Shown here piece by piece: positions 10,929 to 61,727 of a DNA stretch of 64,000 bases (its first letter is position 1; the number at the start of each line of letters is the position of its first letter). The stretch lies in contig NZ_AP014723.1 of assembly GCF_001548035.1 (NCBI RefSeq), positions 434,001 to 498,000 on the forward strand. Reading direction: 5' to 3'. This stretch comes from Sulfurospirillum sp. UCH001. GTDB lineage: Bacteria > Campylobacterota > Campylobacteria > Campylobacterales > Sulfurospirillaceae. Position numbers and translations under genes: made by a program. Under the pieces are notes generated by a model. The model did no database searches and had not been told where the DNA came from. It worked only from the letters and a program-made list of their open reading frames with translations.

Positions 10929-11245
10929 TCGCTAACTCTCTTTTTATGTATATCACTGTTGCGATGATTCTTTTTTCTATTGGCCTGTTAGGTGTCATTA
11001 GCCGTAAAAATATCTTTGTGATTTATATGTCAATTGAGCTGATGCTCAATGCGATTAATCTTATTTTTATCGCCCTAAGTAACTACCATCACGATATGGG
11101 TGGGCAAGTACTTGCTATGTTTGTCATTGCGATTGCCGCGGCAGAAGCAGGAGTCTTTTTATCGCTCATTATTGTCTTGTATCGTCGTAAAAAAACGCTT
11201 GATTCGGATATCTTTAGAACCCTTTCTCAAAAGGAGGCAGTATGA
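10925..11245 (+). CDS. nuoK: NADH-quinone oxidoreductase subunit K
   Basis: A 106-residue three-helix membrane subunit. The conserved glutamate in SIELMLNAINL (about residue 38) and the second in AAAEAGVFLSLI (about 74) are present; both are needed for proton translocation in the family. Start and stop overlap the neighbours by four bases. Confidence 0.95.
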   Translation: MIANSLFMYITVAMILFSIGLLGVISRKNIFVIYMSIELMLNAINLIFIALSNYHHDMGGQVLAMFVIAIAAAEAGVFLSLIIVLYRRKKTLDSDIFRTLSQKEAV

Positions 11246-13128
11246 GTGTCATTCTTGCATTCATTGTTCTTGCTCCTTTACTTTCTTCTGTCCTCATTGG
11301 GCTTTTGTATATGTTCTCCATTACAAAAAAACCTTTACGAAAACGATGGTTCACTATTCCCGCACTTTTCGCACCGTTTATTAGTTTTGTGCTAGGGCTC
11401 AGTGGCTTTTTGTACGTTGCAAAATACGATATACCGCTTCATTTTCAGCCCTATTTGTGGCTTGGCGTGGGCGAGTACAAAATCTATATGGGTTTTTTAG
11501 GCGATAAACTCTCTTTGTTTATGGTGCTCTTTATCACCTTTGTGGGCTGGCTCATTCACCTTTATGCGACGTCTTATATGAGCGAAGATAAGGGCTATGG
11601 AAAGTTCTTTTTTTATTTCAATCTGTTCCTAAGCTCGATGCTTTTGCTCGTGCTCGCAGATGGACCTTTGATTATGTTTATTGGTTGGGAAGGAGTAGGA
11701 CTTTGTTCGTACCTGCTCATTAGTTTTTATTTTCAAGACAATGCCAATGTCGTTGCAGGCAATAAAGCGTTTATCGTCAACCGTGTGGGTGATCTTGGCT
11801 TTTTAATCGGACTTGCGATTCTATTTTTTTACTGCTCTGATACAGGCTTTAGTTATGCAACCATTGCTGCTAAGATCAGCACCATGCCACTTTGGCTTAT
11901 GGAGCTTGTAGGCATTGCGCTCTTTATCGGCGCGATGGGAAAATCGGCTCAGATACCTCTGTATGTGTGGCTACCTGATGCAATGGCAGGACCAACCCCT
12001 GTTTCAGCACTGATTCATGCAGCAACGATGGTGACAGCCGGTGTTTACATGGTCGCTCGTTTTGCTTTCTTGTACGAACTTATCCCCACTATTGGGCTTT
12101 TTATCGCGTATATTGGTGCGTTTAGTGCATTGTTCGCTGCTATCATCGCTACAAAGCAAAGTGATATTAAAAAGATTTTAGCCTATTCAACAATGTCTCA
12201 ACTAGGGTATATGTTTATCGCCGTTGGTTTGGGTGCTTACAGTAGTGCGCTTTTTCATGTCTTTACGCACGCCTTTTTTAAAGCTCTTCTTTTTATGGGT
12301 GCAGGTGCAGTAATCGTCGCATTACACCATGAGCAAAATATCTTCAAGATGGGCAAAATGCGTCATGTTACTCCTGTGGTCTATATGAGTATGCTGATCG
12401 CTACGTTAGCGATTAGCGGTATTCCTCCTTTTGCGGGGTTTTTCAGTAAAGATGAGATTTTATTGGTTGCATTTAATAGTGGTGAGTACCTTATTTGGGG
12501 CATTGCTGTGTGCAGTGCGGTCCTCACGGCATACTATATGTTCAGACTCTTTTTTGTGGTCTTTGAGGGCAAAAACGCCAAACATACCCACCATCCTCAT
12601 GATGTCTCGTGGGTGATGAAAGCACCTTTGGTTGTTTTGTCATTTGGTTCGCTTCTTGCAGGTTTTGTAGGCTTACCTTCGCTTTTAGGTGGAAGTCATC
12701 TCATCGGTACTTGGTTAGGAGAATGGGGCATGAGGGCAATGCATGTTAGCCATGAAACTGAGTGGTGGTTACTCGCACTTAATGTTGCTATCTCACTGTT
12801 GGGTATTGGTATTGCCTATAAAAAATTTAGTGCGTATGACTTTTCAAAACATCAAGAAGTGACAAAAGGTGTTGTCTATAACAAATTCTATGTGGACGAA
12901 GTCTATGACTTTTTATTTGTACGTTCTATTAAAAAACTGAGTGAATTTTTTGCAGTAAATTTGGATGTGAATATTGTTGATCGCTTTATTATGGGACTGA
13001 GTTATGGGGTTATTAAACTAGGGCATCTTGTTGCTCTTGTGCAAAATGCGCATGTACGGCTTTATGCACTTATTATGATGTTGGGCATTAGTGCGGCATC
13101 ATGCTATTTGATTTATGTATTAGGGTAG
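11242..13128 (+). CDS. nuoL: NADH-quinone oxidoreductase subunit L
   Basis: The distal Mrp-antiporter-like proton-pumping subunit, 628 residues and about 16 TM helices, of normal length. FIGWEGVGLCSYLLI contains the key TM5 glutamate and KSAQIPLYVWLPDAMAGPTPVSAL the TM7 lysine region. The C-terminal part (about 530-628) fits the lateral helix and anchoring TM helix. Overlaps nuoK by four bases; nuoM follows after three bases. Confidence 0.95.
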   Translation: MSVILAFIVLAPLLSSVLIGLLYMFSITKKPLRKRWFTIPALFAPFISFVLGLSGFLYVAKYDIPLHFQPYLWLGVGEYKIYMGFLGDKLSLFMVLFITFVGWLIHLYATSYMSEDKGYGKFFFYFNLFLSSMLLLVLADGPLIMFIGWEGVGLCSYLLISFYFQDNANVVAGNKAFIVNRVGDLGFLIGLAILFFYCSDTGFSYATIAAKISTMPLWLMELVGIALFIGAMGKSAQIPLYVWLPDAMAGPTPVSALIHAATMVTAGVYMVARFAFLYELIPTIGLFIAYIGAFSALFAAIIATKQSDIKKILAYSTMSQLGYMFIAVGLGAYSSALFHVFTHAFFKALLFMGAGAVIVALHHEQNIFKMGKMRHVTPVVYMSMLIATLAISGIPPFAGFFSKDEILLVAFNSGEYLIWGIAVCSAVLTAYYMFRLFFVVFEGKNAKHTHHPHDVSWVMKAPLVVLSFGSLLAGFVGLPSLLGGSHLIGTWLGEWGMRAMHVSHETEWWLLALNVAISLLGIGIAYKKFSAYDFSKHQEVTKGVVYNKFYVDEVYDFLFVRSIKKLSEFFAVNLDVNIVDRFIMGLSYGVIKLGHLVALVQNAHVRLYALIMMLGISAASCYLIYVLG

Positions 13129-58834: not shown

Positions 58835-59608
58835 GTGGAGTCACTGGTTAAACTTTTTGGTGAACATCAAGTGATTCTATTCTTTCTTCTATTTGCTAGA
58901 ATTAGTGGGCTTTTCGCTTTTTTTCCTTTTTTCTCTCACGCAAATATTCCATTAACTATTAAAACATCTATGACGTTTTTTATGGTTATTTTTCTATTTC
59001 CACTTTTGCCTGCCTTACAGGTGACTCCAACATTACTGAATCTTACACTTGCAATAGTTGGTGAATTACTGATTGGTTTCGTTGCGGGGCTATTTTTAAC
59101 TATTACGATTTCTATTTTACAAATGGCAGGTATGCAAATTTCGTTTATTATGGGTTTTACAATGGCGAGTGTTATTGACCCACAAACAAGTACCTCTATC
59201 CCTATATTGTCACAAATACTTTCCTTAATTGGTCTTATGGTTGTTCTTGCATTTAACGGGCATCACCAAATGCTACTTTTTATTGCGGATTCATTGACTC
59301 TTTTGCCGTTAGGAAACTTTTATCCTCAGACGAATATGTTAACGTATCTGCTCAAAGCTATGACAGGGATGTTTGTCTATGGATTTATTCTTTCATTTCC
59401 CGTTGTTGCTTTTTCTTTACTTTTAGATGTGGTTTTTGGAATGCTTATGAAAACAATGCCACAATTTAACCTTTTGGTTATTGGTTTCCCCATTAAAATT
59501 ACGGTTTCATTTATTGTAATTGTTGCCACTTTAAGCTCTATCATGCTTCTCTTTAAAAAAGAGTTTATCGAAGCATTGAACCATTTGACACTTCTTTTTG
59601 TCCGTTAA
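58835..59608 (+). CDS. fliR: flagellar export protein FliR
   Basis: A 257-residue inner-membrane component of the flagellar type III export gate, with about six TM helices. ARISGLFAFFPFFS, the GELLIGF motif and MGFTMASVIDPQ are family hallmarks. Starts GTG one base after the ABC ATPase gene. Confidence 0.93.
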   Translation: MESLVKLFGEHQVILFFLLFARISGLFAFFPFFSHANIPLTIKTSMTFFMVIFLFPLLPALQVTPTLLNLTLAIVGELLIGFVAGLFLTITISILQMAGMQISFIMGFTMASVIDPQTSTSIPILSQILSLIGLMVVLAFNGHHQMLLFIADSLTLLPLGNFYPQTNMLTYLLKAMTGMFVYGFILSFPVVAFSLLLDVVFGMLMKTMPQFNLLVIGFPIKITVSFIVIVATLSSIMLLFKKEFIEALNHLTLLFVR

Positions 59609-59668
59609 AGCAATCATAAATTTTTTTATACTACAATGAGAGTTATTAATTCTCATTCAGGAGTGAGC

Positions 59669-61110
59669 ATGCGCCTGTTACTACTCAATAATAATCCCGC
59701 TGTTTCAAGATTAATCAAACTTAGTGCCGAAAAAGCTGGGTATGAGTTAGACGAGTTCGAAGATTATGTGGCTTAGTACCACTCACAACATATGATGTCA
59801 TTTTAGTTGACAATGAACTTTACGAAGAGAGTGCAGTAGCAGGACTACGTGAACATACAGGGTGTGACTATGTTGTTTATATTTGTCAAAGAGGTGCTAA
59901 AAAACCTGAGGCAATGAATGTTTCTTTGGAAAAGCCTTTCTTACCAACGGATTTTTTAGTTTTGATGGATAAGATTAAAAATGTTATTGCAAGCCATAAG
60001 TTAGAAGAGCCAAATGAGGAAGAGCCTATTTCTCAAGCCGATAAAGAAGATGCTGATGCATTTGATATTGATAAAATTGATGCTGAAGATGATGATATGC
60101 TACCAATCAATTTATTGGAAGAGCATCCAGATGATTTTAAAGAAGAGGAAGAAAATAGTGAAAAACTCACTTTTGATGATTTGGAATTAGATGATTTAAA
60201 TTTAGAAGATGAATTATTTGATTCAAAGACATCGGATGAAAAAGAGTTGTCACACAGCGATGATAATTTCTCTTTTGATGATGTTGAACCTTTAGGAAAA
60301 GAAGACGTAACTTCGTTTGAAGATTTTGATTTTGAAGAAAATGAGCACCATGATACTGTCAATACTCTTGAAGCAGAAGAAAATGATTTCGAAGAAGAAC
60401 ATAATCCTTCTATTCTAGATAAAGATGATATTAATGAAGTAAAACAACTCTTAGATGAAAGTGACGAGAATGATGATGATGAAAAAGAAATTGCTGCATT
60501 GTCACTTGACGCATTAGGAGAAGAAGATGATACTGCTGGAACATTTTTCTTTGATGAAAAAGAGAGAGAAGAAGATCCTTTGATGAATAATGAGCTATTA
60601 GGTATTGAAGAAGAGGAAGAGACTGCTGAAGAGTTGAATCTTGAAGAAATGGCATTACCTGTTGAAGAAGATACAATGACAGAGTCATTTGAATCAGAGA
60701 GCAATACTTCTGTAGAGGAAAATCAAGAAGAGATTATCGATGACTTTGCAGAAGTGATTGATGAAAAAATTGAAGAAGAAAAAGAGCAAGTACTAGAAGA
60801 GGAAGCATTACTCCCAAAAATCGATGTAGCACTAGGCAATTTGGATCAAATAGGTGATATTGATTCCTTAGATGATCTCAATGAGAACATGTTGAAACAG
60901 GCATTTGGAGAAGAGATTGAAGAGAATGAGGTTTCAGCTCCAACACTAGTTGTTCCTGAATCAAAAAGCCATGAAATTGAAGTCATTCGTGATGAAATAG
61001 AAAGTAGTATTGCGAAAAGTATTTCAAGTTTAGCACAAAGTGACATTTTGCGTGAAGCTCTTAAAGGTATGCGTCTTAATATTTCTATTACATTTGATGA
61101 AAAAGAGTAG
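59669..61110 (+). CDS. highly acidic receiver-like protein gene, interrupted by a one-base frameshift
   Basis: From ATG 59669 (AGGAG five bases upstream) the frame reads MRLLLLNNNPAVSRL for 35 codons, then hits TAG at 59774. The coding sense continues in another frame from 59776 (VPLTTYDVILVDNELYEE) through the uninterrupted 399-codon frame at 59914-61110. Restoring one T in GTGGCTTAGTACC joins them. The product would have an N-terminal CheY-like receiver fold (about 120 residues, with D in VILVDNE and K in EKPF) and then a very acidic Glu/Asp-rich low-complexity region with a helical C-terminus. Campylobacter has a similarly placed acidic protein between fliR and gmk. Whether the frameshift is real or a sequencing error is open. 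Confidence 0.75.
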
Positions 61111-61112
61111 AA

Positions 61113-61727
61113 GTGAAAGGTAACCTTTTAGTCATCTCAGGACCGAGTGGTTCAGGTAAAAGCTCTTTAATGAAAGAGGTCCTGAAAGAAATTACAGATT
61201 CTTATTTTTCGATTTCAAGTACAACACGATCTATTCGTGAAGGTGAAGTGGATGGGATTAATTACCATTTCATCTCCAAAGAAGAGTTTGAAAAAGACAT
61301 GGATGCAGGATTTTTTTTAGAATGGGCAAAAGTCCATGATAATTATTATGGAACATCACTCAAACCAATTTTAAAAGAGTTACATGCAGGAAAACTGGTC
61401 ATCTGCGATATTGATGTACAAGGACACAAAATTGCTCGTGAGAAGTTTGGAAGCTTAATTACATCTGTTTTCATTACGACACCTGATCAGAAAAGTTTGA
61501 AAGAAAGACTGATTAGTAGAGGGACAGATAGTTCAGAGGTCATCGAAAAACGTCTTGCTAACGCTGTTTCTGAGATGACACGTATAAGGGAATATGATTA
61601 TGTGTTAATTAACGATGATTTTAAAACAGCTTTACATGATTTGCTAGCAATTGCATATACTTCGCGGAAAAAAATGGAGTTGATGGACTTAGGTGAGTTT
61701 ATCAGTGCTTGGGCAAATATCGAATAA
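61113..61727 (+). CDS. gmk: guanylate kinase
   Basis: A 204-residue enzyme converting GMP to GDP. P-loop SGPSGSGKSSL, STTRSIREGEVDG (GMP site) and EWAKVHDNYYGT are clear. GTG start two bases after the acidic gene. Confidence 0.96.
   Translation: MKGNLLVISGPSGSGKSSLMKEVLKEITDSYFSISSTTRSIREGEVDGINYHFISKEEFEKDMDAGFFLEWAKVHDNYYGTSLKPILKELHAGKLVICDIDVQGHKIAREKFGSLITSVFITTPDQKSLKERLISRGTDSSEVIEKRLANAVSEMTRIREYDYVLINDDFKTALHDLLAIAYTSRKKMELMDLGEFISAWANIE

Follow-up and report, generated by a model that had tools for sequence, protein, structure and literature searches.

Results

Layout of the locus

The window is the whole 64,000-nucleotide stretch of the Sulfurospirillum sp. UCH001 genome analysed here, and toward its 3' end an acidic gene lies between fliR and gmk (Table 1). 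An ABC transporter ATPase gene was identified upstream of this locus in a Pfam search, and further neighbors were read from the sequence as what we take to be tsf and argS. The acidic gene occupies two reading frames. Translation of the window from the ATG at 59669 opens 35 codons (MRLLLLNNNPAVSRLIKLSAEKAGYELDEFEDYVA) that end at a TAG (59774–59776), and a second frame, overlapping the first by 31 bases, carries the protein on with GLVPLTTYDVILVDNELY... and, after a long acidic stretch, ...ILREALKGMRLNISITFDEKE, its stop ending at 61110. With the intact orthologue of the relative G017 as the tblastn query, two collinear pieces in different frames were recovered (E 4.8e-165, far beyond chance), one at 59636–59767 with 97.7% identity over 44 amino acids and the other at 59770–61107 with 72% identity. 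The stretch is single-copy, with one DNA match and one protein match in its own genome (one contig, 2,606,563 bases), which rules out a second copy of the gene. An earlier note on this DNA had described an ATG behind a strong ribosome site leading through 35 codons into TAG, with the same protein carried on in another frame, and both parts of that description were confirmed. In the 20 relatives that were aligned, the ATG is preceded by AGGAGTGAGC or by a string close to it. Further 5', many relatives share with the window an almost identical interval (59620–59668), which contains TATACT (59627–59632) and an additional in-frame ATG (59636) and may be a promoter and leader.

Table 1. Coordinates, in window positions, of the frame-broken gene, its parts, and its immediate neighbors.
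Feature	Position	Strand	Basis or remark
fliR, upstream neighbor	58835..59608	+	Pfam Bac_export_1, E 1.8e-56
AGGAG, ribosome site of probable chePep	59659..59663	+	Read in the window sequence, 5' of ATG 59669
Opening frame of probable chePep, 35 codons + TAG	59669..59776	+	Translation
Continuing frame of probable chePep, open, 454 aa	59746..61110	+	Acidic middle, conserved C-terminus
TGTG, site of two surplus bases	59767..59770	+	DNA alignment of 20 relatives, plus L004 codons
Longest ATG/GTG/TTG-started part of continuing frame, 398 aa	59914..61110	+	First such start in that frame
gmk, downstream neighbor	61113..61727	+	Pfam Guanylate_kin, E 1.6e-47

Identity of the gene

The frame-broken gene is very probably chePep, an assignment that draws on architecture and synteny. 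The features by which ChePep is described, a Glu/Asp-rich composition with a conserved N-terminal domain and a short conserved C-terminus, recur here by description, including the long Glu/Asp-rich middle held between conserved ends. The ChePep genes HP0322 and CJJ81176_1193 presumably adjoin gmk as well. In Campylobacter concisus the gene order is the same, and the position between fliR and gmk is held by an acidic 519-residue protein that has the N-terminal NPAVSRL and KPFLP in common with the window gene and a similar C-terminus. The same protein beginning adjoins fliR in a Campylobacteraceae MAG. The poly E-rich HP0322 of Helicobacter pylori is reported to have since been renamed ChePep (PMC3561388), CJJ81176_1193 is given as the chePep of Campylobacter jejuni (PMC5438104), and ChePep is described as confined to the Campylobacterota (PMC11237671). 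Occurrence within that phylum is seen here in C. concisus, in the Campylobacteraceae MAG, and across the order, where a profile built on the first 110 residues (threshold E ≤ 0.001) matched 162 of 199 genomes. Among the matches listed, which for G009 and G132 include the first of two matches each, the domain is cut (positions 1–34 and 34–110) only in the genome studied here, and the window copy differs from the known ChePep in this division into two frames. Across the order, the open frames with this N-terminal domain are 133 to 700 residues long, and the acidic part would accordingly be very variable in length, or absent in some.

The Pfam CheZ model had no match in the Sulfurospirillum sp. 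UCH001 genome, a result to be read with the caution that the model may miss the strain's own CheZ, since the CheZ of H. pylori is called a remote orthologue (in the title of a reference in PMC7750401).

The N-terminal domain

The gene had been called acidic and receiver-like; the first term holds, and the second is borne out weakly. Pfam receiver searches with 17 orthologous N-terminal domains returned no match at E ≤ 1. The NCBIfam model of the CtrA response regulator matched two of three proteins (E 0.0022 and 0.028), far under its cut-off, and a profile search of the PDB gave seven sub-threshold matches (best E 0.14), five of them to entries named response regulators or phoP. Alignment by hhalign to four receivers of the same genome reached a probability of 3.5, and a structure model of the domain, built with three short rows, was unusable (pLDDT 40.8). 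An acidic pair is usual in receivers. The window gene has NNNP in its place, with a D and KPF where a receiver would have them (59689–59698, 59806–59814). The conserved D47 and KPF in combination with NNNP would suit a degenerate receiver.

Size of the change

The break was compared with 23 other genomes of the genus, one genome per species. The continuing part of the protein was matched in 22 of the 23 (23 of 24 with the strain's own genome); G019 had no match and that of G015 is to the C-terminal end only, so that neither is informative at the break site. All 21 orthologues that cover the site are gap-free there, reading [ED]-Y-G-[LI]-V-P-L without an extra residue, in open frames 375–512 residues long. 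Against these relatives the window has two more bases at the site, TATGTGGC, with TGTG where they have TATGG, TACGG, or similar. The DNA alignment comprised 20 relatives; L004 was omitted because its contig starts 3' of the ATG, but its printed codons show an intact site. Among 120 loci searched, the 22-base version of the site found in the window was confined to the window's own two.

The frame break is a true feature of the sequence and is of an ordinary kind. The earlier note had read it as the loss of one base, which does not agree with the comparison: relative to each of the 21 comparable relatives, the window has two bases too many, not one too few. The single added T proposed as the repair does restore the frame, but it leaves a residue that is absent from all 21 relatives.

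Age of the change

The downstream part is intact, as had been claimed: it is open to 61110, and every residue invariant in 17 orthologues (53/53) is retained across both parts of the gene. As the frame remains open and the invariant residues are retained, a recent mutation or an assembly error is indicated, as had also been proposed; the lack of decay fits the two alike and does not separate them. A first, looser count of substitutions suggested an old pseudogene or relaxed selection, with an N:S of 44:23 in the strain's own gene versus 12:19 in G017 (Fisher p 0.016). Stricter counts of singletons did not, neither with six relatives (20:10 versus 11:10 in G017, p 0.39) nor for the downstream part with four relatives (27:22 versus 17:14 in the intact G017, p 1.0), and because they failed to repeat the looser result, relaxation is not claimed. 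In each of the five taxa, N:S was higher for chePep than for the 13 control genes (p <0.01 in four taxa, p 0.06 in G007).

Frequency of split genes

Comparison of the window with 72-kb stretches of G017, G007, and G001 identified chePep, in two collinear pieces, as the sole frame-split gene in each, against 64, 64, and 59 ORFs, respectively, that matched the window in a single frame and stop-free over more than 80%. Many short ORFs of these three genomes match window stretches that contain stops, most of which were taken as wrong-frame shadow ORFs. When 298 kb of the strain's genome was compared with G004, 228 of the G004 ORFs matched at full length and two were split, chePep and a response regulator. 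A stop fell within the best match of 22 of 266 G004 ORFs and 17 of 261 of the strain's own ORFs with matches, mostly near an end.

The split response regulator (G000:C1:432897-433582) lies roughly 1,100 to 420 bases 5' of the window's first base, about 60 kb upstream of chePep, and is divided between two frames by being one base short relative to G004. Fifteen other genomes of the genus have this gene undivided, and in G011 a TAG at residue 216 cuts it short. In the reverse direction one split gene was identified in 340 kb of G004 (G004:C1:439134-441016, L150-L151), divided between two frames at a G run. Its counterpart is the 628-residue protein at window 11242–13128, which we assume from its appearance to be NADH dehydrogenase subunit L.

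Across the whole of the strain's genome, the 37 chemoreceptor and 64 receiver domain matches are free of internal stops, a control that would miss any break lying beyond the domain, and in which the broken response regulator itself scored as stop-free.

Discussion

The break in chePep is most likely ordinary gene damage or a mistake in sequencing, rather than a novel mode of gene decoding. On balance we lean toward a recent duplication of TG to TGTG that would be physically present in the sequenced strain and would put chePep out of frame. A real two-base duplication is preferred to an assembly error on the ground that the site lies outside any homopolymer run: the interval 59741–59800 was scanned for runs of at least three equal bases and none were found. 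Long-read errors usually fall in homopolymer runs, and two extra bases outside any three-base run are not the usual error of this kind. Split genes are also rare: the 298-kb comparison with G004 gave two, beside 228 full-length matches, and the window gave one, a rarity that speaks against an assembly error.

An error of assembly or base calling, with the strain's chePep intact and the two extra bases only in the record, is the less probable of these two explanations, though one to be taken seriously. The protein shows no decay, and the second split nearby, one base short, is what a few residual assembly errors would give. Further, the chemotaxis of relatives is reported to need ChePep (PMC11237671), and the genome of this strain contains 37 chemoreceptor domain matches.

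It is improbable that the strain truly lives without the ChePep N-terminal domain and keeps the acidic and C-terminal part, as 398 residues from the internal start, under selection. Reversible on/off switching by phase variation at TGTG is more doubtful still. The surplus pair is a tandem dinucleotide, but TGTG holds two units only, and the second unit is absent in all 21 relatives. Switching repeats are usually much longer than two units. A switching example described for H. pylori has 9–10 CT units, and slipped-strand switching of motility genes is documented in Campylobacter (PMC7677240).

Least credible is a programmed −1 frameshift (or +2 hop) that would yield full-length ChePep with the short peptide as a possible by-product, a reading that the earlier note had left standing beside recent change and assembly error: the two frames share 31 bases and each part is conserved, but no XXXYYYZ heptamer occurs in the overlap or in the six bases preceding it, the RNA fold of 59760–59860 is unremarkable (−19.4 kcal/mol versus −17.0 for shuffled sequences, sd 2.75, z −0.87, a stability reached by 46 of 200 shuffles in pseudoknot-free folding), and all 21 site-covering relatives use one frame. 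Slippery heptamer, RNA fold, and conservation were thus all checked and none gave support. The systems of the dnaX or IS type are programmed −1 frameshifts in which two overlapping frames jointly encode one protein, a likeness shared by the window gene, which differs from them in having no slippery site, stimulating fold, or conservation of the arrangement.

Returning to a real duplication, the recent two-base tandem change at codons 33–34 would shift the chePep frame, and ribosomes starting at 59669 would produce a 35-residue peptide and then meet the stop. At most, some of the 398-residue protein would be made from the internal start, lacking the N-terminal domain. Loss of ChePep would then be expected to cause a swimming defect like that of the H. 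pylori mutant. In H. pylori, the polar localization and function of CheZ are reported to require ChePep, and the chePep mutant is described as reversing frequently, with a clockwise bias and severely reduced spreading in soft agar (PMC11237671, PMC7750401, PMC5447363). Because the loss of ChePep has these effects in H. pylori, mislocalized CheZ, frequent reversals, and poor soft-agar spreading are predicted for Sulfurospirillum sp. UCH001. In C. jejuni, insertions in chePep are reported to lower mouse colonization (PMC5438104).

Small indels with loss of motility in culture have a reported parallel in laboratory-grown C. jejuni, in which fliR acquired a frameshift (PMC7677240). In both cases a cultured strain would have a short insertion or deletion in a gene for motility or chemotaxis; the C. 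jejuni change lies in a tract of eight A, whereas that in the window is a dinucleotide outside any homopolymer.

As it stands, the finding is of little importance, adding another frame-broken gene of the kind that annotation misses or marks as a pseudogene. Should the two bases be an error, the sequence record needs correcting. If instead the 398-residue reading were true, a bacterium with dozens of chemoreceptors would be able to do without the N-terminal domain. And if the two surplus bases are genuine, the strain would offer an existing chePep mutant of a free-living Campylobacter relative, an asset given that the studies of ChePep cited here deal mainly with host-associated species.
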